DNA of 54,846 nucleotides, taken from IMG/VR virus record IMGVR_UViG_3300044846_001025, positions 1 to 54,846 of that record; one strand, written 5' to 3'. Source of the DNA: a virus. Every line of letters begins with the position of its first letter. Positions within the stretch are counted from its first letter, which is position 1. This document shows positions 8,031-26,760 of the stretch, one piece after another. The notes under the pieces were generated by a model. That model ran no database searches and was not told where the DNA came from. It saw nothing but the letters and a program-made list of their open reading frames with translations. A program made the translations under genes and the position numbers.

Positions 8031-8318
8031 TCAGTCAGACTCCCTTGGATACACTATGAGACCTTTTGGTGTTAGTTCCGCTAGATCCTCTACAAAGCCG
8101 TCAACAAGTGTCTCTATTAGAGTGTACTTGTCGAAGACCATTACTAGAACTACACCGTGGTGAGTTTTAGTTGCTGTGTAGGATATGGGATGCATGTCTT
8201 TTACGACATTACTTACAAAGGTTGAGTCATCTGATGTCATCTTCAATGAATCATTGACTTGTTGTCCACATGCTGTACAAGCCATGGACAAGAATAGGAT
8301 TACGAATAATGTTCTCAT
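8031..8318 (-). CDS. Small lipoprotein, unknown
   Basis: 95 residues with the start at the second in-frame Met (MRTLFVILFLSMACTACGQQ), which follows the conserved TTTTTCTTTCC tract by 7 nt. The longer frame to 8357 would run over the preceding gene. A hydrophobic core followed by TACGQQ suggests a type II signal peptide with lipidation at Cys17. The mature part is short and beta-rich. No family is recognised. It is probably attached to the outer or inner membrane and made early. Confidence 0.65.
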   Translation of the reverse strand: MRTLFVILFLSMACTACGQQVNDSLKMTSDDSTFVSNVVKDMHPISYTATKTHHGVVLVMVFDKYTLIETLVDGFVEDLAELTPKGLIVYPRESD

Positions 8319-8336
8319 AAAATAGGAAAGAAAAAC

Positions 8337-8352
8337 GGGGACCTTAGTCCCC
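8337..8352 (-). terminator. Terminator-like hairpin with a stop codon in its loop
   Basis: On the - strand GGGGAC, TAAG and GTCCCC form a hairpin followed by GTTTTTCTTTCC. The TAA in the loop is the stop codon of the 53-residue gene. The next start codon is about 18 nt beyond the stem. Confidence 0.75.
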
Positions 8353-8505
8353 CTCAAATGTTGAGTTTTCTAATGCATTGAGGTCAGATTCATTCTTCCC
8401 ATCTTCACAGCATTGTTGGCACATGTGAAATTCATCACATTGGCAGGTCAGTTCAGGAGAGATGCTATACATAGCATACATGTCCGAGGCTTCTTCAAAG
8501 GTCAT
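8344..8505 (-). CDS. Small Cys-rich protein (53 aa)
   Basis: It begins MTFEEASDMYAMY and has the cysteine pattern CQCDEFHMCQQCC (residues 21-33), with a His between, which could hold one zinc ion. It is acidic overall. The start follows the same T-rich tail and the stop sits in the loop of the next hairpin, so it fits the unit structure of the array exactly. No family is recognised. Confidence 0.65.
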   Translation of the reverse strand: MTFEEASDMYAMYSISPELTCQCDEFHMCQQCCEDGKNESDLNALENSTFEGD

Positions 8506-15206: not shown

Positions 15207-16898
15207 ATGGCGTTAAGGGCAGCAGTAGCGAATGGAAACTGGAGTAGCACAGCTACTTGGAACGGGGGTGTTGTACCTACCGTAGGAGATGTTGTTGCTT
15301 CTAACGGATTTACTGTAACCATTAATCAGAATATAAACGTAGATTCTATTACAAATGCTGCACAAGCTGTAGTGGGAGCAGTTCCTGATATGACTTCTGC
15401 AACTACACCAAGTGGTATTGTAACAGCTAGTCAATCAGAAACAGGCCTTCGTGCAGCTTTTAATGCTTTTGAGGGAGATTTTAACACAGAGTGGTGGCCT
15501 TCTGGAGCAGCATGGATAGCATACGAGTTTCCTACACCTAAAGCAATTGATCAGTATACTGTAGGTACTTATGGAGGTACAGGGAGTTGGACATTTGAGG
15601 GATGGAATGGAAGCACTTGGATAGTGCTCCACACTGTTGTTAATACAAGTTTTGGTTATACCTCACCTTTGATTGGGAATAGCGTTGCTTATATCAAGTA
15701 TCGTTTAAACTATAATCCAAGTGCACCTAGTCGATTACATACTATTCAATTCTATGAATACCTAGGTACATCAGCAGCAGTAGCAGGAGGAACATTTATA
15801 CTTAATGATGGAGTAACTGTTACATGCACAAACGCTACCAAAGGACTTGCAGCCCAAAATACAAACTCTTTAAATCTTCTTACATATTCTGGAACAGGAA
15901 CGGCAACGATAAATGCAAACGCTTTATATCAAAATAACACTAGTTCTAGGGATATTTTATTTAATAGTTCAGGTACATTGAATATAGTTGGTAATTTTAA
16001 GACAAACGTTACTTCATTTCAATCCTCAATTGCTAAAACTGGTACTGGGATATTGAATTTTACAGGAAGCATGGAGATGGTTTCTGGGTATTGTAAAGTT
16101 CTTGATTCTACCGCAGGAACTGTGAATATTACAGGAGACTGTACAATCACTTTTTGTAATGGTAATAGTGGATCATTAATTAATTTATCTCAAACTACAG
16201 CTAATATTTCTGGTAATTTGTATTTATATAACTGTACAGATAGAGTAACAATTTATGTTATAAGCAATAGTAATAATTCTATTCTTACAATTACGGGGAC
16301 ACTTACTGCTCAAGATCCTCCTACCCAAACAGCAAGTGGTAATTTTGTAATAAATAATAGTGCATACTGTAAAGTTATAGGTGCAATTATTTGTTTGTAC
16401 TATAGAAATCAAGGATATAACTCAACTTCTGCATCTGCTATAAATATACTAACAGGTCCTTTTGTTAGTGGACCGAATGGAGTACAACCAATCTACGTCA
16501 CTCGTATGCACTACCAAAGAACTATGGGTTCTTATTACGAGTTTAGAGATAATTCTACCAATGGAGCTTTACCTCCTGCTGCATCTGCTCCTGCTACTAG
16601 ATTAGTTAGTCCAGATACAATAGCTGATTCTCCTATTCCTGCAAACGTAAGACAAGGAACAGTTTATTCATTAGGTTCACAAACAGGCACAATGATAGTA
16701 CCTTCTCCCTCTAACGTAGCCAACAACGTACCTGTAGACAACACAGTAGGAACAGCAGTTCTTGACCCTACTGCTATATGGGCTGTCCCTTTGACTTCCA
16801 TTAACACGCTTAATAGTATAGGAAGAAGAGTTAAAAACGCTGCTACAGTTGAAACTACTGGAGCACAAATTCAAACCACATTAAATAATAATCCATAA
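15207..16898 (+). CDS. Receptor-binding-type protein A
   Basis: 563 residues. The N-terminal 55 residues (MALRAAVANGNWSST... QNINVDSITNAAQ) are nearly shared with the next gene and are probably the virion-attachment part. Residues about 60-185 resemble an F5/8-type (discoidin-like) carbohydrate-binding domain (AWIAYEFPTPKAIDQYTV, SWTFEGWNGSTWIVL). A long Asn, Thr and Gly-rich beta-helix-like region follows (about 190-430), then a C-terminal domain again shared with the next gene. It probably recognises host surface glycans. Confidence 0.7.
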   Translation: MALRAAVANGNWSSTATWNGGVVPTVGDVVASNGFTVTINQNINVDSITNAAQAVVGAVPDMTSATTPSGIVTASQSETGLRAAFNAFEGDFNTEWWPSGAAWIAYEFPTPKAIDQYTVGTYGGTGSWTFEGWNGSTWIVLHTVVNTSFGYTSPLIGNSVAYIKYRLNYNPSAPSRLHTIQFYEYLGTSAAVAGGTFILNDGVTVTCTNATKGLAAQNTNSLNLLTYSGTGTATINANALYQNNTSSRDILFNSSGTLNIVGNFKTNVTSFQSSIAKTGTGILNFTGSMEMVSGYCKVLDSTAGTVNITGDCTITFCNGNSGSLINLSQTTANISGNLYLYNCTDRVTIYVISNSNNSILTITGTLTAQDPPTQTASGNFVINNSAYCKVIGAIICLYYRNQGYNSTSASAINILTGPFVSGPNGVQPIYVTRMHYQRTMGSYYEFRDNSTNGALPPAASAPATRLVSPDTIADSPIPANVRQGTVYSLGSQTGTMIVPSPSNVANNVPVDNTVGTAVLDPTAIWAVPLTSINTLNSIGRRVKNAATVETTGAQIQTTLNNNP

Positions 16899-16904
16899 CA
16901 GATT

Positions 16905-18560
16905 ATGGCACTAAGAGTAGCAGTCGCAACAGGTAACTGGTCAAATCCAGCAATATGGAATGGAGGTGTACTTCCTTCTGCTGGAGATGTTGTTGCGTCT
17001 AATAACTTTACAGTTACAATAGATCAAAATATTAACGTTGATATACTTACGAATGCTGCACAAAGTATTGTTGGGATGGTTCCAAACATGACTTCAAATA
17101 CCTTACCTAGTGGTATTGTAGATCAATCTTCTTTTCTTGTTGGCTTTGAAGGTTGGAAAGCTTTTGGTAGTGGAGAGTGGCGATTTAATTTGGACGGTTG
17201 GGTTTCCTATGAATTTACAAGTCCTAAAGCTGTTAATCAATATTATTTCCAAGGAGATAGTATTAAATCTGCTTGGAATTTTGAAGCATGGAATGGTAGT
17301 AATTGGATTGTTTTACATTCAGTTACAGGAGCAAGTACAGGGGTTTATACCAGTCCGTTAATTGGAAATTCAACATCTTATATTAAATACAGATTATTTT
17401 TTTTCCATACTACCAACGGTAACAGAGTTGATACTGTTCAATTTTATGAATACTTAGGAACCACAGCAGCAGTAGCAGGTGGTGGGTTTTTAATAACAGG
17501 AAACAACATCACTGTTACTTGTACTACTACTTACAATGAAAATACCTACGGTACTGTAACTTTATTAACTGTAAATTCTACAGGTACTGTAAATATTAAT
17601 TTAAATTATGTCGGCAATAATATACTAAAAGACGTTGTTCTACTTAGCATAATAAATACTGGTATTGTTAATTACACAGGAAATTTTTATGCAGGTGGTT
17701 CCCCAGCTCCAATTAGTATTACTGCTGCGTGTACGTTTAATTTTACAGGTAATATTAGACAAATTTCAAATGGTACTGCGAGAGGTGTAATCTCTGTAAC
17801 AGCTACTAATTATACATTAAATATTACAGGTGATGTAGGGTTTGCCACGGGAGGACAAACAGGTTATTGTATTTTGATAAATGGAAATGGTAATATAAAT
17901 GTAACTGGTAGTCTAATTGGTAACGGTACAACTAATCAATCCGCTATTTCTATTAATTCTATTGCAACATTAAATGTAACAGGTTCTTGTATAGGTAATG
18001 GTATTGGTTCTGGTATTTTTACAGGGACTGCAAGTTATGTTAAAGTCATTGGTTCTATTATATCGAACGGGTCAGCAGGAGTAAATTCCTCAAATGCTTC
18101 TGCAATTAATCTATTTACAGGACCTTTTGTGTGTAGTCCTTATGGATTTGTTCCATTGCAAGTTGTAAGAATGCATTTGATTCCTACAGCAAATTCTTAT
18201 ATTGAGTTTAGAGACGAGACAACTAATGGAGCACTAAGTCCAGGAGCAATAGCACCTGCAACTCAATTAGTATCTCCTGCAACTCTAGTAAGTAACCTAG
18301 CAACCTCTGATGTAAGGTTTGGAATTGTATATGCTTTAGGAACTCTAACAGGAACTTTAAGAATGCCTACTGCAAACCAAGTAACCTTTGGCATACCTGT
18401 TGATACTACTTTTGGAAACGCAGTATTAACCGCTGCTTCTGTTTGGGATTACTTAGTAGCAAACATAACTACAGCAGATAGTATAGGAATGAGACTAAAG
18501 AATGTAGCCACTCCTCAAACAACAGGAGAACAGTTAGAAGCTTTTCTAAGATTAGATTAA
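16905..18560 (+). CDS. Receptor-binding-type protein B (paralogue of A)
   Basis: 551 residues with the same layout as the gene before it: conserved N-terminus (GDVVASNNFTVTIDQNINVD), discoidin-like domain (WVSYEFTSPKAVNQYYF, NFEAWNGSNWIVL), beta-helix-like middle with very different sequence, and a related C-terminal part (FRDETTNGALSPGA). The shared ends and diverged centre mark a tandem duplication that separated binding specificity. Six bases separate the two genes. Confidence 0.7.
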   Translation: MALRVAVATGNWSNPAIWNGGVLPSAGDVVASNNFTVTIDQNINVDILTNAAQSIVGMVPNMTSNTLPSGIVDQSSFLVGFEGWKAFGSGEWRFNLDGWVSYEFTSPKAVNQYYFQGDSIKSAWNFEAWNGSNWIVLHSVTGASTGVYTSPLIGNSTSYIKYRLFFFHTTNGNRVDTVQFYEYLGTTAAVAGGGFLITGNNITVTCTTTYNENTYGTVTLLTVNSTGTVNINLNYVGNNILKDVVLLSIINTGIVNYTGNFYAGGSPAPISITAACTFNFTGNIRQISNGTARGVISVTATNYTLNITGDVGFATGGQTGYCILINGNGNINVTGSLIGNGTTNQSAISINSIATLNVTGSCIGNGIGSGIFTGTASYVKVIGSIISNGSAGVNSSNASAINLFTGPFVCSPYGFVPLQVVRMHLIPTANSYIEFRDETTNGALSPGAIAPATQLVSPATLVSNLATSDVRFGIVYALGTLTGTLRMPTANQVTFGIPVDTTFGNAVLTAASVWDYLVANITTADSIGMRLKNVATPQTTGEQLEAFLRLD

Positions 18561-18621: not shown

Positions 18622-18870
18622 ATGAAATTTCTAAACTTTATTGGAGGCCTTTTCAAAGACGAGAAGGGTAATGTCTCCATGAAACGTTTGTGCGGCTTAT
18701 TTTGCACATTGACCTTGTGTGCTACTTTGTACGCCAATTCATTTACTGAAGCTCACTTTGCTCCATCTGTTCCATTAGTAGATGCTGTTGCCTTACTTGC
18801 GTTCGGTTGTCTTTCTTTGACTAGTGCAGAGAAAATCATGAAAAAGAAAGAAGGGGACTCTGCTGAATAA
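18622..18870 (+). CDS. Holin-like small membrane protein
   Basis: 82 residues with two hydrophobic segments (about 21-37, RLCGLFCTLTLCATLYA, and 52-69, VDAVALLAFGCLSLTSA), a short polar loop and a charged tail (KKKEGD). Size, topology and position just before a lysin candidate fit a holin of the two-segment class. No specific family is claimed. Confidence 0.6.
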   Translation: MKFLNFIGGLFKDEKGNVSMKRLCGLFCTLTLCATLYANSFTEAHFAPSVPLVDAVALLAFGCLSLTSAEKIMKKKEGDSAE

Positions 18871-18872
18871 AC

Positions 18873-19574
18873 ATGGCTTATGTCTACAGACATATCAGGT
18901 TAGATAAGAATGTACCTTTCTATATTGGATTAGGTACAGATTCTAATTATTCTAGAGCACACCAAACTAAAAGTAGAAATCAACACTGGCATAATGTTGT
19001 AAAACACTCTGAGTATAGAGTAGAGATTATGTTAGACGATTTATCCTTTGAGGAGGCTTGTGCAAAAGAAGTAGAACTGATAAGTGTGTATGGCAGAGTA
19101 GATACTTGTGGGGGTACTCTAGTTAATTGGACTGATGGAGGACAAGGTACTTTAGGTTGGAGACATGAGGTAGGTTACTGGACAGGTAAGACTTTACCAG
19201 AATTTATGCGTAAGAATCTATCTGAAGTAGCTAAATTAAGAGTGGGAGAAAAGAACCACTTTTATGGAAAGAATCATTCTGAGGAAACAAAAGAGAAACT
19301 TAAACAGAGTAGATTAGGTAGCACCCTTACAGAAGAAACTAAACTTAAGATAAAAGAGTCTTTAAAGAACTCTGAAGCTTTTAAGAATAGAGTTCAGGCT
19401 GTTAGGCTAGGGGCAGACAATCCTAAATCTAAACAAGTAATCAATACCGAAACAGGAGAGACTTATGAGAACCTTAGAATAGCTTCAGAAACTACTGGAA
19501 TAGGCTACAATAAGTTAAGATCTTACTGCCAAGGAAAAGTTAAAAGCAAGACAAATTGGAATTATAAACTATAA
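18873..19574 (+). CDS. GIY-YIG homing endonuclease with NUMOD motifs
   Basis: 233 residues. The N-terminus (YVYRHI ... VPFYIGLG, about 3-21) is the GIY-YIG core, with Arg and His residues after it and a Glu-containing helix (AKEVELISVYG). The middle carries HFYGKNHSEETKEKLKQSRLG, a NUMOD3-type DNA-binding repeat, and the end (TGETYENLRIASETTGIGY) is NUMOD1-like. It is a free-standing mobile gene inserted between the holin-like and lysin genes, cutting DNA of related phages to spread itself. Confidence 0.85.
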   Translation: MAYVYRHIRLDKNVPFYIGLGTDSNYSRAHQTKSRNQHWHNVVKHSEYRVEIMLDDLSFEEACAKEVELISVYGRVDTCGGTLVNWTDGGQGTLGWRHEVGYWTGKTLPEFMRKNLSEVAKLRVGEKNHFYGKNHSEETKEKLKQSRLGSTLTEETKLKIKESLKNSEAFKNRVQAVRLGADNPKSKQVINTETGETYENLRIASETTGIGYNKLRSYCQGKVKSKTNWNYKL

Positions 19575-19587
19575 ACTATAAATAATC

Positions 19588-20226
19588 ATGAACTATACAA
19601 GAGAACAAATTGAAGCCGCAGTAAAAGCCAAGGGCTATGCTTACTTTGATGGCACAAAAGACTACGATGTAAATATCATCGGAGTACGTAACTCTTCTAC
19701 TGGTAACGATGTTACTAACTTGTTTGATGACACTATGACTGTTGCTTACAAAGTAGGAGGCAAATGGGTATTTCACCAATGGATGGCTACCACAGATCCA
19801 GGTACTAAAGGTGTTAAAGAATTTCACAATGCTGGTGGAGTAGCAAGACTAGTTCCAGGTCAGTACAGAGGTTCACACGGTATTGGTTTACACCAAGGTA
19901 AGTACGAAGCTTTGAAGCAAGCTAAACCAGTTAAGGTTTATCGTGATGCTAACAAAGACATGACTTACGATGAGGCTACCATCACTGAGGGTATCTACGG
20001 TATCAACATCCACAAAGCTGGTGCAGATTCTACTTTTGTAGAAAACTGGAGCGAAGGATGCCAAGTGTTTAAGCGTGAGAAAGATTTTAACCAATTTATG
20101 GAAATCTGTAAACAGGCTCGTGGCATTCATGGTAACTCTTTCACTTACACCTTGATTGAGTCTGGTGACTTTATTGTTGCTGATAAAGTAAAAGGCGAAG
20201 CTAAAAGAGCTGCTAAGAAAAAATAA
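19588..20226 (+). CDS. L,D-transpeptidase-fold protein, candidate endolysin
   Basis: 212 residues. H142, S155, G157 and C158 (IHKAG ... WSEGCQVF) reproduce the catalytic HxnSxGC pattern of the YkuD/L,D-transpeptidase fold. There is no signal peptide, and the C-terminus is Lys-rich. With a holin-like gene upstream, it most likely acts on cell-wall peptides after holin release. Whether it cuts or cross-links peptide bridges cannot be told from sequence. The C-terminus overlaps the next start by one base. Confidence 0.65.
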   Translation: MNYTREQIEAAVKAKGYAYFDGTKDYDVNIIGVRNSSTGNDVTNLFDDTMTVAYKVGGKWVFHQWMATTDPGTKGVKEFHNAGGVARLVPGQYRGSHGIGLHQGKYEALKQAKPVKVYRDANKDMTYDEATITEGIYGINIHKAGADSTFVENWSEGCQVFKREKDFNQFMEICKQARGIHGNSFTYTLIESGDFIVADKVKGEAKRAAKKK

Positions 20227-20681
20227 TGAAAAGACTACTCGTTAGTCTTTTAATATTCTTGACTATCTCCTGCAAAGCACAAACTATTGCTAAGGCAGGA
20301 GATGGTTGGGATTTAAAGATTGACTCAGCCATACAACTTATAAAGACCATTGACCCTGAAAAGTACAAAGTCTTTACAGATGTGTGTCAAAGAGTTGATT
20401 TTTGGAAAAGTTCTTTTTCTTCCACAGGTGTAGTTGATGGAGACTACACGATATTTATAGCAGATGCAGACATTAAGTTAAAGTCTATCAATAACTTAGC
20501 GGCTGTGTTAGTTCACGAAAGTATGCATTTAGTATTTGTTTTAGAAGATGCAGTCATGAGTGAAAAGGAAGAAGAATTTAAGTGCTATTTGTATGAATTA
20601 TCCTTCATTAAAAACATTCCAACCCCCGAGCCTTGGTTACTGGCAAACCTTTATGAAAAATTGCAAAAATATAAACCATGA
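20226..20681 (+). CDS. Exported HExxH zincin-type protein, possible lipoprotein
   Basis: 151 residues. The N-terminal signal (RLLVSLLIFLTISC) ends in an LTISC lipobox-like site with Cys16, or could be cut before Gln19. HESMH at 97-101 supplies the zinc ligands and Glu of a zincin metallopeptidase, with Glu116-118 as a possible third ligand. It is coupled by one base to the lysin gene and by ATGA to the T9SS-tail gene. A role in cutting envelope proteins during lysis or surface change is inferred. Confidence 0.65.
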   Translation: MKRLLVSLLIFLTISCKAQTIAKAGDGWDLKIDSAIQLIKTIDPEKYKVFTDVCQRVDFWKSSFSSTGVVDGDYTIFIADADIKLKSINNLAAVLVHESMHLVFVLEDAVMSEKEEEFKCYLYELSFIKNIPTPEPWLLANLYEKLQKYKP

Positions 20682-22567
20682 AAAAAATACTTTTGTTTGT
20701 ATTGGGGTTGCTTATCCTCACTACTAGCCTCATTGCACAAAGTGCAAACACTTCTCCTGGAACTGGTCATTGGGTTGTTATAGACTCAGGTTATCAAGTT
20801 GCTACAACTACTGTAGGTAAAACAGTAGCACCCCTGCATTTTTACAACACTTCTACTTCAGAGAAAATTACAGGTATGCAGTTTCGTGTATTCTATGATA
20901 AGACTGCATTTACTGGTGTTGTGCCTACTTTAAAAATCTCTACTTCAGATCAATACCTTCAGTATGTAGATAGTAATTTACAAGGATTCTTAACTGTAAC
21001 TCTAGCTTACACAGGTTCTAATTCTTCATTTAATTATTCTGACGGTGCTACATTTGATTTAACTTTTACTCACGCTGCCGAAGCTATATTTAACAACTTA
21101 GATTCAATCAAGACTTTGAAAGTTGCAGGTGTAAAATCATTTGCAAATAGAGCTGCTACTAACTGGGGTAACGATACCACTTTGGTTGTCTACTCTTATG
21201 GTGGTCGTTTTAACCAAAAGGTTCTTCGCTTTGCTGCTAAGTTTAAAAACGTTACGGGTTCTGATGCTAAGAATCTTTGGGTGTCTTTAGAAAAGAAAAC
21301 TCCTACAGGTTCTTGGACACACGTAGAGTCAAAATCAACTAACTCATTGGGCCACGTAGTATTTAAGAAATTTATTGATACTACCTACTGGGATGTAAGA
21401 ATGGTTGTTAAAGGGGATACAATGACTCCTGGTAACGTATTCTCTACTGCTGACGCACAGAAGATTAACCAAGCAATCCTTGCACAATATACTCCAACAG
21501 GATTTGACTACTACACTATGGATGTAAACGGAACTAGCGGAGACATTTCTATTGCTGACGTTTACTCTGTTTATGGTCGTTTGGCAGGAAGATTTTCTTC
21601 TTGGCCCAACTCTAAAAAGGACGTAATGTTCTTTACAGTAGCTGAGTACAATGCTATCAACGGTGCTACTGCTAATCCAACCTCTACTTACGCAACTGTC
21701 AACAACTTCAACTATTCTATTGACGGTAGAGACTCTATTACTTACTACGTAGCAGTTAAAGGAGACGCAAACTCTACAGGATTTAAAATGGCTCGTCTGA
21801 CTCCTATTAAAATTGTCAATCAAGCAAATGCTAAGAACTACATCATTGACAAAACAGTAAGTTATGATGACCCTTCTTTGGAGACAGTAGAAATCAATAT
21901 GCCCAAAGTAAAAGTAGAGGACGGTAATTTGGTGAGCGTACCAGTTAAAGTTTTGACTAACGGTAGAGACCTTACTGCTCTTCAGTTAGACCTTAAATAC
22001 GATACTGCTTACTTGTCTTTCAAACAGATTGAAGTAACAGAAAAAATTATGAAGTGGACTGCTTACACAAATCCTTCTAATGGAGTTGTGTCTTGGGGAG
22101 GAGCTGACCTTACAAATGCCAATCTGTTAAAAGACGGAGAACAAGTATTTACTCTTCAGTTCATTGCTAAGAAACCACAGGATTCTTGGGCTACAGCAGC
22201 CATCTGGACAGCAGAAAAGTACGTAGGTGATAACAAGGCTAAGGATATGAACATTAAACCTACTATGGGCATTATTGAGGTTCGTAGAAAAGGATTGGTA
22301 TCTATCAACCAAGTAAGTGACCTAATGGCATTTCCAAATCCTTCAGAAGGTGCTGTCCAAGTACAATTCAAGATAGCCGAAGAGTCTGACGTAAACTTGT
22401 CTTTGTACAATGAGGTAGGTCAGTTAGTCCAAAATATTCTAGACAAGCACATGCCTGTAGGAAACTATAAGTACAGCGTGGACTTAGAAAGATTACCTGA
22501 CGGAGTTTATATCTTAACTCTTAAAACAGAAAAACAAGTCCTAGATTCTAAACTATTAATCATATGA
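20678..22567 (+). CDS. Secreted cohesin/dockerin protein with T9SS C-terminal sorting domain
   Basis: 629 residues. Signal peptide 1-20, cut before Gln21. A cohesin-like beta domain (about 30-175) is followed by an Ig-like or prealbumin-like region, a dockerin-like Ca-binding loop DVNGTSGDISIADVY (282-296), then RFSSWPNSKKDVMFFT and a second cohesin-like domain (about 400-535). The last ~80 residues (MAFPNPSEG at 550-558, then YNEVGQLVQ, GVYILTLKT, KLLII) are a textbook type A T9SS sorting domain. It should be exported through the host T9SS and fixed to the cell surface or released. Finding this on a phage is unusual. Confidence 0.85.
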   Translation: MKKILLFVLGLLILTTSLIAQSANTSPGTGHWVVIDSGYQVATTTVGKTVAPLHFYNTSTSEKITGMQFRVFYDKTAFTGVVPTLKISTSDQYLQYVDSNLQGFLTVTLAYTGSNSSFNYSDGATFDLTFTHAAEAIFNNLDSIKTLKVAGVKSFANRAATNWGNDTTLVVYSYGGRFNQKVLRFAAKFKNVTGSDAKNLWVSLEKKTPTGSWTHVESKSTNSLGHVVFKKFIDTTYWDVRMVVKGDTMTPGNVFSTADAQKINQAILAQYTPTGFDYYTMDVNGTSGDISIADVYSVYGRLAGRFSSWPNSKKDVMFFTVAEYNAINGATANPTSTYATVNNFNYSIDGRDSITYYVAVKGDANSTGFKMARLTPIKIVNQANAKNYIIDKTVSYDDPSLETVEINMPKVKVEDGNLVSVPVKVLTNGRDLTALQLDLKYDTAYLSFKQIEVTEKIMKWTAYTNPSNGVVSWGGADLTNANLLKDGEQVFTLQFIAKKPQDSWATAAIWTAEKYVGDNKAKDMNIKPTMGIIEVRRKGLVSINQVSDLMAFPNPSEGAVQVQFKIAEESDVNLSLYNEVGQLVQNILDKHMPVGNYKYSVDLERLPDGVYILTLKTEKQVLDSKLLII

Positions 22568-22914
22568 AACTAAAAGAAAAACTTGGTTTTGGCCAAGCAG
22601 AGCCCGTAGCAGTACCAGATAACAATCGTTTCTACTACATGCTACAACAAATGCAAGCCAATCGTTGGAAAATTACCGCTATCGTATTGGGCTTGTTTAC
22701 TCTAATCATTGTAGGTATTAATGCTGCTGTCTTTGTAGGAGCTTCTATTGGAGAAGACTGGAAAGAAATGTTACTTATCCTCTTAGGAGCTTTTGTAGGT
22801 AACTTGAACAAAGTAGTTGACTACTGGTTCAACTCTGAAGACAGAGACAAAATGTTAATACAGAAGGTGGATGAGGAGGATGGTGTATCTTTGTCAAACA
22901 CAACTAATCCATAA
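22564..22914 (+). CDS. Small membrane protein, holin-like
   Basis: 116 residues with two hydrophobic segments (about 38-59, TAIVLGLFTLIIVGINAAVF, and 68-84, EMLLILLGAFVGNLNKVV), then a polar tail with DYWFNS, an ending often seen in phage holin-type proteins. It starts on an ATGA overlap. It could be a second holin or antiholin. It would sit in the inner membrane. Confidence 0.6.
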   Translation: MKLKEKLGFGQAEPVAVPDNNRFYYMLQQMQANRWKITAIVLGLFTLIIVGINAAVFVGASIGEDWKEMLLILLGAFVGNLNKVVDYWFNSEDRDKMLIQKVDEEDGVSLSNTTNP

Positions 22915-22918
22915 TATT

Positions 22919-23242
22919 ATGTCAGAAGAACAAGAAGAAGGCGGAATGTCTGGTGTAAAGAAAGCAATCATCGGAGCAATTACCACAGCGGTAACTGCAG
23001 GTGGTGCTTGGTTTGCTACTCACTTAGGTGGTGGCGAAGATGAAAAGCCAGAAACTCCAGCAGCTGTAGCTGCTCCCGCACCTGTGATTAACATCACTAC
23101 GAACAACGAACAGAAGCAACAGGCAAACACTGGTGGCGGTAATACCGTTATCATTAAGGAAAAGGCAGCACCTGCTGCATCTACTCCTGCCCCTGCTGCT
23201 CCTGCGTCTAAACCCCAAGCAGATGAAGAAGATCCTTGGTAG
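22919..23242 (+). CDS. Single-pass membrane protein with Ala/Pro-rich tail
   Basis: 107 residues from ATG 22919. One transmembrane segment (about 14-33, IIGAITTAVTAGGAWFATHL) follows a short acidic N-end. The rest is Ala, Pro and Gln-rich and disordered-looking, ending EEDPW. The shape (one anchor plus a long flexible arm) would fit a spanin-like or envelope-bridging protein, but no family is recognised. Its last 20 nt overlap the CsgG-like gene. Confidence 0.55.
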   Translation: MSEEQEEGGMSGVKKAIIGAITTAVTAGGAWFATHLGGGEDEKPETPAAVAAPAPVINITTNNEQKQQANTGGGNTVIIKEKAAPAASTPAPAAPASKPQADEEDPW

Positions 23243-23912
23243 CCTACTGTTAATAATCCTTATCTATGGTTGTGGTTCTATGAAGACCACAACCGAGGAT
23301 GAGGTTATTGAGAAAAAAGATATTTCTAGCGTGTCTGGATATACTGATTCTATTAAGAAGAACGTACAAGTAATTAGCATGGACATGACTAAAGTGTTGG
23401 CTATGTACCCAAGTCTTCAAGAGAAGAATGTAGGTTTAGGTTTTGCAGAATCCGTATTAGATTATTTAGATGAAACAAATCGTTTTGTATTTACTGAAGA
23501 GAAGGGTGAAATCAAGGAAAGGATGGTAACTCAATTCAAAGCTTCTAAAAAAGGAGTCTTTGAAGAACCTATTGACGGCAAAGGAAAAATTAAAGCTGCC
23601 CACTACTTTGTTTATGTAACCGTTGCTGATTTTGCAGTAGACGAGGACGAGACCGTACAAGGTGGAAAAGCTAAAGTAGTGGTAACTACTTTTATCCGTT
23701 TGCAAGTTCGATTTGTAGACGCTAAAACAGGACAAATTTACATTGGTTCTGGTGAAGGCGAATCTATAAAAGTAGGAGAGTCATTCTTAAAATCTCTAGA
23801 CGATATGAAGTTTTCTCAAAGTACCGTAGGTAAGGCAACACGAAAGTCGCTTGAAACAGCAACTACCAAAGTGATTGAAAACCTTATTAGAAACGGTGTC
23901 TTTAAGAGCTAA
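23223..23912 (+). CDS. CsgG-like outer-membrane lipoprotein
   Basis: 229 residues from ATG 23223. The signal ends in LIYGC with Cys17 as lipidation site. The middle and end follow the CsgG/HfaB pattern: GLGFAESVLDYLDETNRFVF, then a conserved KAAHYFVYVTVADF strand pair, VVVTTFIRLQVRFVDAKTGQ, and a C-terminal helix STVGKATRKSLETATTKV. CsgG proteins assemble as lipidated outer-membrane export pores for curli. Short CsgG-like lipoproteins without a pore also exist, so pore function is inferred. Confidence 0.68.
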   Translation: MKKILGSLLLIILIYGCGSMKTTTEDEVIEKKDISSVSGYTDSIKKNVQVISMDMTKVLAMYPSLQEKNVGLGFAESVLDYLDETNRFVFTEEKGEIKERMVTQFKASKKGVFEEPIDGKGKIKAAHYFVYVTVADFAVDEDETVQGGKAKVVVTTFIRLQVRFVDAKTGQIYIGSGEGESIKVGESFLKSLDDMKFSQSTVGKATRKSLETATTKVIENLIRNGVFKS

Positions 23913-25338
23913 CATATTAATCTTACTATTGAGTATAGGACTGAGTTTAAAAGCTCAGTCCTTTACCTACTCGTACACAGACCCGTGTACAAAACAATTA
24001 AAGTTCATTCTTGCTGATATGAACTCTCCGATAGTAATAAGTTACTACGGACAAGTAAAAAACTTCAGTTACACAGAATTGCAAGATGGTACATTTGACG
24101 CTTGGTTAAATTATACTTATGCCAATTACAAAACAACAACCCCATGTCAAGGAGTTTTTGCAACAACTACTACAACTACAAGCACAACAACTATAACTTC
24201 TTTAGTAAATAATGTGATGAATCTTAACTCTTTAACGAGTTTAGATTTATCTTCGACTTCGCTAGGATCAAGTACTTCAATAGGAAGTACAACATCTTCT
24301 GGCACAAATGTAAAAAATGACTCTAAAAATGGAAGCTCGAATAACAAAGTTGGTAGTAATGGAAACAATAGTACTACTGATAATTCTGGGAATAATTCTA
24401 GTAACAGTGACCAGTCATCTGGACAAGGGTCCAATACGTCGTCAGAAGGACAAGTAGGCAATGGAAGCAACTCAAGTAATAATTCTAATGGCTCTAATGA
24501 TGCTGGGGGTAACTCTGGGAGTGGCTCTAGTTCTTCTTCTAGTGGTGGTGGTAATGGTTCTGGTGGAGGTGGTGGTTCAGGCACCGCAGGTGATAAGAAA
24601 CCTGAAGAAAAAACTCCTGAAAAGATAGAAGAACAAAAGAGTGAAACCCAACAAGCAGGTGGAAGTTCATCCGCAAAAGCCGCTGCTAAAGGTAAAGTAG
24701 AAACTCAAAAACCAGCTATTCTAGTTACAGGGGATATAGTTGGAGTCCAAACTGTTAAAGATCAAGCACAAGACGCTAGAGCAACAATGTCCTTTACTAG
24801 AGTTAAAGGAGATGGTACTGCCTCTATAGGACTTGCAGCTGACTATATGATCAATGCTAAAATAGGAAACTTTAATGGTGTACGTTCTTGGATGGGTGTC
24901 AACAAGAAAGGTAACAAACATATCAATGTTCTTTCGGCAGGAATTAACCTCATGCCAAAGTCCTACAATGGTTCTTTGTTGTTTGTGAGGGTAAACTCGC
25001 TAAAGAACTTTACAGCACTCTACGGAGCCGCTGCATCGTATGGCGAGTTATTTCAAGAAGAAGTTATATCTACCCTACTGATAGGCGGTTTTATGTATAA
25101 GGGACAACTTACCAAACACATAGACGCTACTATTATTGCCGCTAGTGTTTACGCTCCTTATACAAAGTATTACACAGAGTCTCTATTTGAATCTCAACCA
25201 ATTATAGTTCCTTTTTTAAACATCAACTATTCTCTAACTAAGACTTTTAAGGTGGGATTCACAGGAGGAGGAACTTACATTGCAAACCAAGATGTTGTAA
25301 ACTATCAATTACTTATAGGAGGGAAGTTAAAGATATGA
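23896..25338 (+). CDS. Exported protein with low-complexity linker and probable outer-membrane barrel
   Basis: 480 residues from GTG 23896 (MSLRANILILLLSIGLSLKAQ), chosen over TTG 23875 because it places a standard signal peptide at the N-end. A short Cys-containing N-domain is followed by a long Thr/Ser/Asn/Gly-rich stretch (about 80-230), a charged Lys/Glu segment, and a C-terminal part (about 275-480) of alternating hydrophobic strands ending LLIGGKLKI, as in outer-membrane barrels. It overlaps the CsgG-like gene by 17 nt, which suggests joint work. No family is recognised. Confidence 0.6.
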   Translation: MSLRANILILLLSIGLSLKAQSFTYSYTDPCTKQLKFILADMNSPIVISYYGQVKNFSYTELQDGTFDAWLNYTYANYKTTTPCQGVFATTTTTTSTTTITSLVNNVMNLNSLTSLDLSSTSLGSSTSIGSTTSSGTNVKNDSKNGSSNNKVGSNGNNSTTDNSGNNSSNSDQSSGQGSNTSSEGQVGNGSNSSNNSNGSNDAGGNSGSGSSSSSSGGGNGSGGGGGSGTAGDKKPEEKTPEKIEEQKSETQQAGGSSSAKAAAKGKVETQKPAILVTGDIVGVQTVKDQAQDARATMSFTRVKGDGTASIGLAADYMINAKIGNFNGVRSWMGVNKKGNKHINVLSAGINLMPKSYNGSLLFVRVNSLKNFTALYGAAASYGELFQEEVISTLLIGGFMYKGQLTKHIDATIIAASVYAPYTKYYTESLFESQPIIVPFLNINYSLTKTFKVGFTGGGTYIANQDVVNYQLLIGGKLKI

Positions 25339-26318
25339 GATGGTTAATCGTATTTTTGCTATGGACAGTTGATTTATCTGCCCAGTTTACCTATTCAGGA
25401 TACTTATATAATGCTAATGGGTCAGGAGCTGTTAATGTTCCTATTAGACTTTATCGTAGGACGAACGCAACCATTACAGGCTTTACTAACCAACAGAACT
25501 ACAACGGACACTCTTATTATCGTTCTACAGGAACTGCTACATGGACTACTGCTAGATCTAACTGTGCAGCTATGGGTGGTTATCTAGTAACTATTACTAC
25601 TGCAGCTGAACAAAGTTTTATATTTAATATATGGCCTTCTGGATGGATAGGATTAACAGATGAAGTGACTGAGGGTACTTGGAGATGGGTGACAGGAGAA
25701 ACTTACTCTTATAAAAACTGGAACTCTGGAGAACCTAATAACGCAGGTAACGAAGACTACGTTCAATTTGTATCTAACGGAAGGTGGAATGACTTACCTA
25801 ACAATGTTTCATTACCTTACGTGTTAGAGTTTGACTATGTAGTTACAACTTCTTCTTGGGCACTATATAAGACTATATATACTAACTCTTCGGGTTACTA
25901 TTCTATATCTGAGGCTTATGACCCGTCTAAAGAATACTACATAGAAATAGTAGCGCCTACAAGAATACAAGCTTACACAACTTCAGATGTACAAGCTGTT
26001 TCTAACATTGTTCTTAACAAAACTGCGAGGAATGGTCTTTCTTTTCATATGTTTGACGTAAACGATGATGGTATAATATCAGTAGCAGATAAGTACTATA
26101 TAGCTGCAAGAAAGGCTGGGAGATTTTCTAGATGGAGATTAGCCCCAGATGTTCGTATCTTTACAACAGCACAATACAATACAATTAAAGCAGCTACTAC
26201 AAATGTAAGAGGAACTTATCCTGGAGTCAGTACTCATACTACTTCTACTCTTACCTCAGGAGGAAGTTTAAGTCTTTACCTAATAGCACCTGGTTATGCA
26301 GGACAAGTAACATACTAA
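25335..26318 (+). CDS. Secreted C-type lectin with dockerin-like module
   Basis: 327 residues. Signal peptide 1-16, cut before Gln17. A C-type lectin domain covers about 52-166, with WIGLTDE (104-110), the mannose-type Ca-site motif EPN (133-135) and WND (151-153). Cys77 has no clear partner cysteine. A DVNDDGIISVAD Ca-binding loop (241-252) and the following RFSRW...DVRIFTTAQYN resemble the same module in the T9SS-tail protein. There is no T9SS tail, so it may be released or bind the first protein. It is coupled by ATGA to the barrel gene. Confidence 0.8.
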   Translation: MRWLIVFLLWTVDLSAQFTYSGYLYNANGSGAVNVPIRLYRRTNATITGFTNQQNYNGHSYYRSTGTATWTTARSNCAAMGGYLVTITTAAEQSFIFNIWPSGWIGLTDEVTEGTWRWVTGETYSYKNWNSGEPNNAGNEDYVQFVSNGRWNDLPNNVSLPYVLEFDYVVTTSSWALYKTIYTNSSGYYSISEAYDPSKEYYIEIVAPTRIQAYTTSDVQAVSNIVLNKTARNGLSFHMFDVNDDGIISVADKYYIAARKAGRFSRWRLAPDVRIFTTAQYNTIKAATTNVRGTYPGVSTHTTSTLTSGGSLSLYLIAPGYAGQVTY

Positions 26319-26319
26319 C

Positions 26320-26760
26320 ATGAAAAAACTAATCATACTCTTAATCCTAGCATTTGCAGGTTCGTTGAATGCACAATGCTACAAAATTGACACCGTTAGA
26401 AACCACACACAACTAAGAACTATTGCAGGTAGGCCTGTAGACTTTGGTATAGTGGCAACGGCTGAACAACTTATCTCTGCCAAGTATTCTTTGTGCGATA
26501 CAGGCATTGGAGTTGACCTTGCAATTAACACAATTGCTATGCCTCAAAGACTAATTAACATTGCAGGGTTGCAGTTACTAAAAAGGGATTATGTAGTTAA
26601 TATGTCCATCACAGCTAATAACATTACACATTATTCTAGGAACGTAAAGACCGTTTATGTCAATGCTATGTTCCTAACTGTAGAGGACATTCCTCACAAC
26701 AAAAAAGCATACTCTAGGGCGGTAGAGAAGTGCTTAATAGATTTAGTTAAGGAGTTGTAG
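26320..26760 (+). CDS. Small exported protein, unknown
   Basis: 146 residues. The signal (KLIILLILAFAGSLNAQ) is cut before Gln19, next to Cys20. The mature part has a beta-alpha-beta look (IAGRPVDFGIVATAEQL, KRDYVVNMSITANN) and ends in an amphipathic helix. No family is recognised. It ends with TAG and closes the exported-protein block. Confidence 0.6.
   Translation: MKKLIILLILAFAGSLNAQCYKIDTVRNHTQLRTIAGRPVDFGIVATAEQLISAKYSLCDTGIGVDLAINTIAMPQRLINIAGLQLLKRDYVVNMSITANNITHYSRNVKTVYVNAMFLTVEDIPHNKKAYSRAVEKCLIDLVKEL

Follow-up and report, generated by a model that had tools for sequence, protein, structure and literature searches.

The viral record IMGVR_UViG_3300044846_001025 of IMG/VR, analyzed from position 1 to 54,846 (54,846 nucleotides; hereafter the window), carries a block of eight contiguous, closely packed open reading frames (ORFs), all on the positive strand between positions 20226 and 26760. 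This block is best explained as a horizontally mobile surface-display cassette of phages with Bacteroidota-type hosts, which probably equips infected cells with an adhesin scaffold resembling a cellulosome. The initial annotation of this DNA had proposed that the genes form one system at the host envelope, a proposal supported by their fixed order, their all-or-none presence among relatives, their transfer as a unit and the type IX secretion system (T9SS) sorting tail of one product. The genes and domains of the block are as follows.

20226..20681, positive strand: gene 1, exported HExxH protein of 151 amino acids (aa), putative zinc metallopeptidase
20678..22567, positive strand: gene 2, scaffold protein of 629 aa with Pfam and NCBIfam matches
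20807..21145, positive strand: cohesin-like domain 1 of gene 2 (residues 44-156; Cohesin, E = 3.4e-4)
21416..21604, positive strand: dockerin-like module of gene 2 (DVNGTSGDISIADVY...GRF), also found in gene 7
21890..22276, positive strand: cohesin domain 2 of gene 2 (residues 405-533), above the Cohesin gathering score
22331..22561, positive strand: T9SS type A C-terminal sorting domain of gene 2 (PF18962, TIGR04183)
22564..22914, positive strand: gene 3, membrane protein of 116 aa resembling a holin in its size and two-segment hydrophobic layout
22919..23242, positive strand: gene 4, Pro/Ala-rich single-pass membrane protein of 107 aa with a conserved C-terminal (D)EEDPW
23223..23912, positive strand: gene 5, CsgG-like outer-membrane lipoprotein of 229 aa with lipobox ...IYGC
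23896..25338, positive strand: gene 6, signal peptide, two-Cys N-terminal domain, linker and C-terminal barrel
24709-25335, positive strand: predicted outer-membrane barrel of gene 6 (C-terminal 209 residues)
25335..26318, positive strand: gene 7, exported dockerin-bearing binding protein of 327 aa, with a C-type lectin within an Ig/CnaB-like domain
25536..25823, positive strand: C-type lectin domain of gene 7, with EPN and WND sugar- and calcium-binding motifs
25947..26135, positive strand: dockerin-like module of gene 7 (DVNDDGIISVADKYY...GRF), homologous to the gene 2 module
26320..26760, positive strand: gene 8, small exported protein of 146 aa

The scaffold protein encoded by gene 2 consists of a signal peptide, cohesin-like domain 1, an Ig/CnaB-like domain, the dockerin-like module, cohesin 2 and the T9SS type A sorting tail, in that order. 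A hydrophobic N-terminus followed by an (x)Q site in all 19 of 19 representatives points to export by a Sec signal peptide. Cohesin 2 is detected at E = 5.9e-11 in the whole protein, and at 7e-9 and 36.4 bits when searched alone (cut-off 24.1), while cohesin-like domain 1 scores 21.3 bits, just under the same gathering score of 24.1. The tail matches Por_Secre_tail (PF18962; 1.7e-11, 44.7 bits versus a cut-off of 27) and TIGR04183 (2e-9, 37.3 versus 23), as well as the solved chain 8glk_D; a sorting tail of this kind makes sense only on the surface of a Bacteroidota cell. The T9SS-tailed cohesin/dockerin protein of the initial annotation therefore keeps its tail and its cohesin, now with two cohesin-like domains in place of one, whereas its dockerin is degenerate and falls under the Pfam cut-off.

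The second element of the putative scaffold is gene 7, for which the earlier C-type lectin assignment is confirmed by a Lectin_C match at E = 7.1e-18. The domain contains the EPN and WND motifs, which form the calcium- and sugar-binding site of mannose-type C-type lectins, and a motif count found both to be kept in 30/30 distinct lectin variants. Across 71 distinct gene 7 sequences, four exchangeable types of binding domain sit on one conserved base, comprising 30 C-type lectins plus two variants, 22 domains of unknown type, 9 PA14 domains and 8 GEVED domains; in the lectin, PA14 and unknown types, sequence inspection places the domain within the Ig-like domain. The type differs even between the window and the contigs L003-L006, which carry a 100% identical TerL and encode the lectin and the unknown type, respectively.

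Ig/CnaB-like strands and the dockerin-like module make up the C-terminal half of gene 7, which is a homologue of the central part of gene 2 (33% over 159 aa, E = 2.3e-16). Six of 16 members of these modules match Dockerin_1 (best 2.6e-4, under the Pfam cut-off), and only the second repeat keeps the DVNxDG loop, the first EF-hand repeat being degenerate. Their weak PDB matches include cellulosomal dockerins, via this loop only. With a single loop kept and Dockerin_1 scores below the cut-off, "dockerin-like" is the appropriate term for both modules; a dockerin is defined by two calcium-binding EF-hands and neither the gene 2 nor the gene 7 module has both, thus the cassette is described as working like a cellulosome-type scaffold and is not filed as a member of that class.

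Genes 4 to 6 encode the candidate components of an envelope-spanning assembly. Gene 4 is conserved in all lineages, including Flavobacterium phage immuto (discussed below), and overlaps gene 5 at its 3′ end. Gene 5 had been annotated as a CsgG-like lipoprotein. A lipobox in 10 of 11 representatives (immuto being the exception) supports the lipoprotein part of this assignment, and the likeness to CsgG is suggested by the predicted fold and not by sequence: PF03783 is matched by 2/12 members (best E = 0.025, under the Pfam CsgG cut-off), and CsgG was not detected in the window protein by sequence search. For the AlphaFold model of gene 5, the best Foldseek matches in the PDB are all CsgG (4uv2/4uv3; E 1.5e-6, probability 1.0); ring lipoproteins such as PelC rank below it. 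The fold of gene 5 likely resembles CsgG, and any membrane-spanning pore is hypothetical. The start codon of gene 6 is probably the GTG at 23896, the ORF list having placed it at a TTG at 23875. Alignment of its homologues revealed a small two-Cys N-terminal domain carried on a long flexible linker rich in Ser, Asn and Gly. The barrel that had been called probable is modeled as 12 antiparallel strands with a mean predicted local distance difference test (pLDDT) score of 80.6, and its Foldseek matches are KdgM, NanC, FapF, NalP and EstA, autotransporter pores among them.

In gene 1, HESxH and E116/E117 are invariant in 18/18 sequences, with a downstream motif EE..CYxYE; a weak match to phrog_1365 was also found (best 2.9e-4). 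The initial "lipoprotein" label is dropped for this protein because the lipobox cysteine varies, and 26/26 representatives carry a signal peptide with an AQ/SQ/GQ cleavage site like that of signal peptidase I. A relative lacking the block (L045, 7387-7773) encodes near the same site an HExxH protein (MIAHESFHV...EEAFAYLLG) with no evident signal peptide, of which gene 1 may be an exported cousin. Gene 3 holds a conserved position in the gene order among relatives, and no significant family was found for it in family searches. Hydropathy places a signal peptide on gene 8 in 26/26 representatives, in agreement with its description as a small secreted protein, and an immuto homologue is seen by alignment. 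When sequence profiles were compared with PDB chains, those of the CsgG-like, barrel and HExxH proteins and of the small proteins returned nothing usable; a low-complexity match of the barrel profile and a repeat match of the dockerin profile in that search were rejected as artefacts.

Organization of the block is consistent with joint production of its proteins. Four-base overlaps join genes 1 and 2, 2 and 3, and 6 and 7, and a twenty-base overlap joins genes 4 and 5; these recur in most relatives and bear out the overlapping or nearly adjacent starts noted initially. A signal peptide or lipobox is present on six of the eight proteins and the remaining two are membrane proteins, again as first described; a crude export-signal scan found approximately ten such proteins among the 62 ORFs of the window, and the chance of six falling in these eight is about 8e-5. 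Two more small proteins with export signals lie outside the block on the opposite strand (657-1118 and 8031-8357, negative strand). The count in a promoter scan was below the shuffled expectation, and terminator-like sites, 14 versus 5.3 in shuffles, fall mostly within genes, so the operon assignment rests on the gene overlaps. Defense-system models gave no match.

In scans of viral contigs, gene 2 had 97 relatives and gene 5 had 156, of which 80 were retained in either case. Block order and strand are kept in 170 of 173 loci with at least four block genes, a count in which many contigs were fetched more than once. Two of the three exceptions reflect gene 2 matching the related gene 7 module and the third is phage immuto. 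Within the window's own lineage, the block is either present as a set or, in 14 relatives (TerL 64-85%), wholly absent; the wH gene that lies downstream persists in all 14, and in most of them the endolysin is visibly retained as well. No gene 2 homologue was found anywhere in the 14 block-less records, some of which are fragments, and the Por_Secre_tail family occurs exactly once in 10/10 block-bearing records and in 0/10 block-less relatives. The scattered or randomly absent genes that the initial annotation had named as evidence against a single system were therefore not observed. Outside the swapped gene 7, dN/dS ratios of approximately 0.03-0.27, with one TM108 value of 0.35, indicate purifying selection.

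The same cassette occurs in phages of different lineages. The window phage is crAss-like, with TerL and portal proteins approximately 25-30% identical to those of Crassvirales members; its closest annotated relative is Leptolyngbya phage Lbo-JY46 (PP438436.1; TerL 38.5%, portal 28.9%), whose listed cyanobacterial host would be unusual for a member of the crAss-like group; the culture may have contained a Bacteroidota bacterium. A second crAss-like lineage (L126, L072 and L071) has gene 2 at 73-78% with TerL only 28-29% identical. T4-like contigs of 166-176 kb (L107, L133 and L162), with a gp23-type capsid (E 5.6e-74 to 5.3e-63), carry gene 2 at approximately 72-73% (L107, L133) and gene 5 at 89% (L162). 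Even within the lineage of the window, L052/L060 combines a TerL at 74% with 93% in gene 5 and 96% in gene 4. Neither a window-type TerL nor gp23 was found in L105, L112 and L087. High block identity despite unrelated or 28-29% identical TerL indicates that the cassette is passed among phages whose capsid and packaging genes differ, and on these comparisons the block is a mobile, non-structural module transferred as one unit.

A bacterial origin was considered and rejected: a scan of 84,980 species genomes, which used two short peptide patterns only, returned a single CsgG-like relative, on a 16.5-kb "Sphingomonadaceae" metagenome-assembled genome contig with a phage lysis/cassette segment (L135, RFPL01000028.1). 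The cassette is accompanied there by an endolysin and a holin-like gene, which identifies the contig as phage DNA, probably assigned to the wrong bin. The cassette is itself invaded in six contigs (L157, L063, L152, L095, L191 and L198) by endonuclease-like genes between genes 3/4 and 5/6, which are related to a NUMOD3-type homing endonuclease gene of the window (18873-19574).

Of particular value for interpretation is immuto (MW353176; host Flavobacterium sp. LMO8), whose four records are the only ones in the annotated phage collection to match genes 2, 6 and 7, and represent the sole isolated phages found with the cassette. Homologues of genes 7, 2, 4, 5, 6 and 8 lie at 10.5-16.4 kb, where the existing annotation lists domains only, or hypothetical proteins. 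Compared with the window, this is a reordered core in which gene 7 (ORF13, a lectin) stands first and gene 2 is split; genes 1 and 3 were not found in the immuto cassette and are considered accessory on that account. The cassette adjoins nucleotide-metabolism genes, apart from the lysis genes, the chitinase and holin being approximately 28 kb away. The immuto capsid is of gp23 type (1.6e-85); in a test of kinship, its ribonucleotide reductase gave no match in the large phages, gp23 capsids being present in both.

The two immuto ORFs that correspond to gene 2 each have their own signal peptide. ORF14 continues with the gene 2 N-terminal region, an Ig-like domain and the dockerin-like module; its N-terminal region is cohesin-like in the window counterpart, whereas Pfam detects no cohesin in immuto. 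ORF15 exceeds the Pfam cut-offs for both of its domains, a cohesin at 36.6 bits and a T9SS tail at 36.7 bits. This fission or fusion of gene 2 provides the strongest sequence-based indication that its dockerin-like and cohesin parts function together, and it bears on cohesin-dockerin binding only indirectly.

The surroundings of the block in the window include two lysis genes, both outside the cassette.

18622..18870, positive strand: holin-like two-segment membrane protein, an upstream neighbor also present in block-less relatives
19588..20226, positive strand: endolysin-like gene forming the upstream flank (phrog_3000, 4.6e-37; phrog_33083 endolysin, 2.5e-12), retained in block-less relatives

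The NUMOD3-type endonuclease gene described above lies between them. Further upstream, at 15207-18560, are two tandem paralogous tail-fibre-like genes (MALR.A.A.GNWS..ATWNGG), approximately 43-52% identical to those of otherwise near-identical phages, marking an exchange hot spot. The block follows a phrog_3000-type endolysin in the crAss-like lineages, while L107, L133, L105 and L112 have a PG_binding endolysin within a few genes downstream (its GH19 match was tested in L107, L105 and L112), and Phage_holin_4_1 genes lie near the cassette in L107 and L112. As two non-homologous lysis modules adjoin the same cassette, a link to late expression or egress is suggested, and this placement points to a cassette that may be expressed late. 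At the cassette site, the block-less L020 (6261-7265), L033 (1564-3217) and L037 (6757-7432) encode small membrane-anchored, coiled-coil-looking proteins; related genes are inserted between genes 3 and 4 in L105 (12261-13715) and L180. These coiled-coil-looking genes are possibly spanin-like.

Taken together, these features allow a mechanism to be proposed. The cassette proteins would be exported by Sec, after which gene 2 would leave the cell through the host T9SS and become anchored on the surface by its sorting tail. Gene 7 would dock onto gene 2 via the dockerin-like module, as their shared module and the swapping of domains on a constant base would fit, and display its exchangeable ligand-binding domain, a mannose-type C-type lectin in the window. 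The CsgG-like gene 5, the barrel of gene 6 and the inner-membrane gene 4 may constitute a dedicated outer-membrane channel or assembly platform, which would probably bring out genes 7 and 8, both without T9SS tails; genes 1 and 3 would be accessories. The infected surface would thereby become coated with a sugar-binding scaffold. If so, the likeliest benefit, although a doubtful one, is that a late coating stops surface sugars from adsorbing competing or progeny virions, including on post-lysis debris. A bolder version, offered tentatively, is a self-contained viral surface organelle, in which a T9SS-anchored cellulosome-like scaffold and its own CsgG/FapF-like exporter, loading swappable lectins, move as a unit between T4-like and crAss-like Bacteroidota phages.

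Several observations weigh against surface display as described. The gene 5 model is of moderate confidence (pLDDT 68), with TM-scores of 0.3-0.45 against CsgG. The sub-threshold Dockerin_1 scores and degenerate first EF-hand leave cohesin-dockerin binding as a prediction, and the surface exposure of genes 7 and 8 is likewise presumed, neither having a T9SS tail. Furthermore, no coupling of the gene 7 domain type to the adjacent tail-region gene was seen; L126 and L073, for example, share that gene and carry a lectin and PA14, respectively. In this comparison the tail-region gene does not encode a receptor-binding protein in every case, and gene 7 itself was picked in a few rows. Within these limits, the apparent lack of coupling weakens a receptor-masking purpose. 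It is rather improbable, but consistent with the adhesin-type nature of the displayed domains (C-type lectin, PA14 and GEVED), that the cassette makes infected cells sticky, binding neighboring cells, algae or particles and so increasing encounters of progeny with hosts; preservation of the lectin sugar site in every variant suggests a constant ligand over a varying receptor.

An accessory role in lysis or egress is unlikely, though it has the genomic context in its favor. The peptidase, holin-like gene 3, gene 4 and the lipoprotein and barrel would breach the outer membrane in place of spanins, with the T9SS scaffold and lectin detaching cells or loosening a surface layer. The two independent placements beside lysis genes (phrog_3000-type; PG_binding and GH19 in L107/L133/L105/L112) fit such a role, as do the coiled-coil-looking proteins at the site in block-less relatives and the gene 4/gene 5 overlap, which resembles an i-spanin/o-spanin arrangement. 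However, gene 4 is Pro/Ala-rich with no coiled coil evident on inspection and gene 5 is a 229-aa protein with a CsgG-like fold, unlike the parts of a two-component spanin; some block-bearing phages (L105) also keep a spanin-like gene; and immuto retains six of the genes without 1 and 3, far from its chitinase and holin. Sugar-binding domains, cohesins and T9SS tails are not known to have a role in lysis. It is very improbable that the proteins are virion components, whether decorations or receptor-binding proteins. Phage tails often carry C-type lectin and Ig-like domains, and the block lies only a short distance behind tail-fibre-like genes, but six signal peptides, an outer-membrane barrel, a lipobox and a T9SS tail argue otherwise, and a virion role is also argued against by a cassette that crosses between phages with different capsid and packaging genes, occurring with both gp23-type and crAss-like structural genes and, in immuto, beside nucleotide-metabolism genes. 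Surface display thus remains the preferred reading, and because the cassette is common to such phage groups, it must help them in a general way.

Searches of the open-access literature turned up no account of phage cassettes of the cohesin/dockerin, CsgG-like or barrel kind, and an eight-gene package of this kind has apparently not been described previously. The cassette is grouped here with other cases of host-surface remodeling by phages, but there is a genuine chance of its being categorically new. Such remodeling is usually known from single small proteins, whereas here a conserved, mobile multi-gene package is found in approximately one hundred environmental contigs, and appears to use the Bacteroidota-specific T9SS together with a scaffold chemistry that recalls cellulosomes. 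Candidate functions follow for many unannotated genes of aquatic phages, and the isolation of immuto, which carries the core, makes the idea directly testable.

Cellulosomes combine surface-anchored cohesins with separate dockerin-bearing functional proteins, and in immuto the anchor cohesin and the cohesin-like/dockerin-like adaptor are likewise separate proteins; the cassette differs in that no enzymes were found in it, its dockerins are degenerate, its anchor is a T9SS tail and it is phage-encoded. The gene 5 model matches CsgG of curli and the gene 6 barrel matches FapF of the Fap system among 12-stranded pores. These likenesses come from models at identities of approximately 5-15%, however, and no amyloid subunit, CsgE or CsgF was recognized in the cassette. 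Bacteroidota phage proteins with T9SS type A sorting tails are known from Cryophage, whose T9SS cargo, including a PA14-domain protein, was called a "unique occurrence" and taken to suggest hijacking of the host T9SS and possibly superinfection exclusion (Bellas et al. 2020, PMC7468147), and from T9SS-tailed ORFs of a crAss-BACON cluster (PMC6949934). In both cases the cargo genes are separate, whereas here one T9SS-tailed cohesin scaffold is part of a conserved set of eight genes that also encodes a CsgG-like protein, a barrel and a partner with a dockerin-like module, and that has passed between phages unrelated to each other. A precedent for exclusion or debris protection by a phage-made envelope protein is Llp of phage T5, a lipoprotein that prevents adsorption to infected cells and to post-lysis fragments (PMC9586334); Llp is a single small lipoprotein, made early and directed at a protein receptor, in contrast to the eight-gene display cassette located here beside lysis genes.

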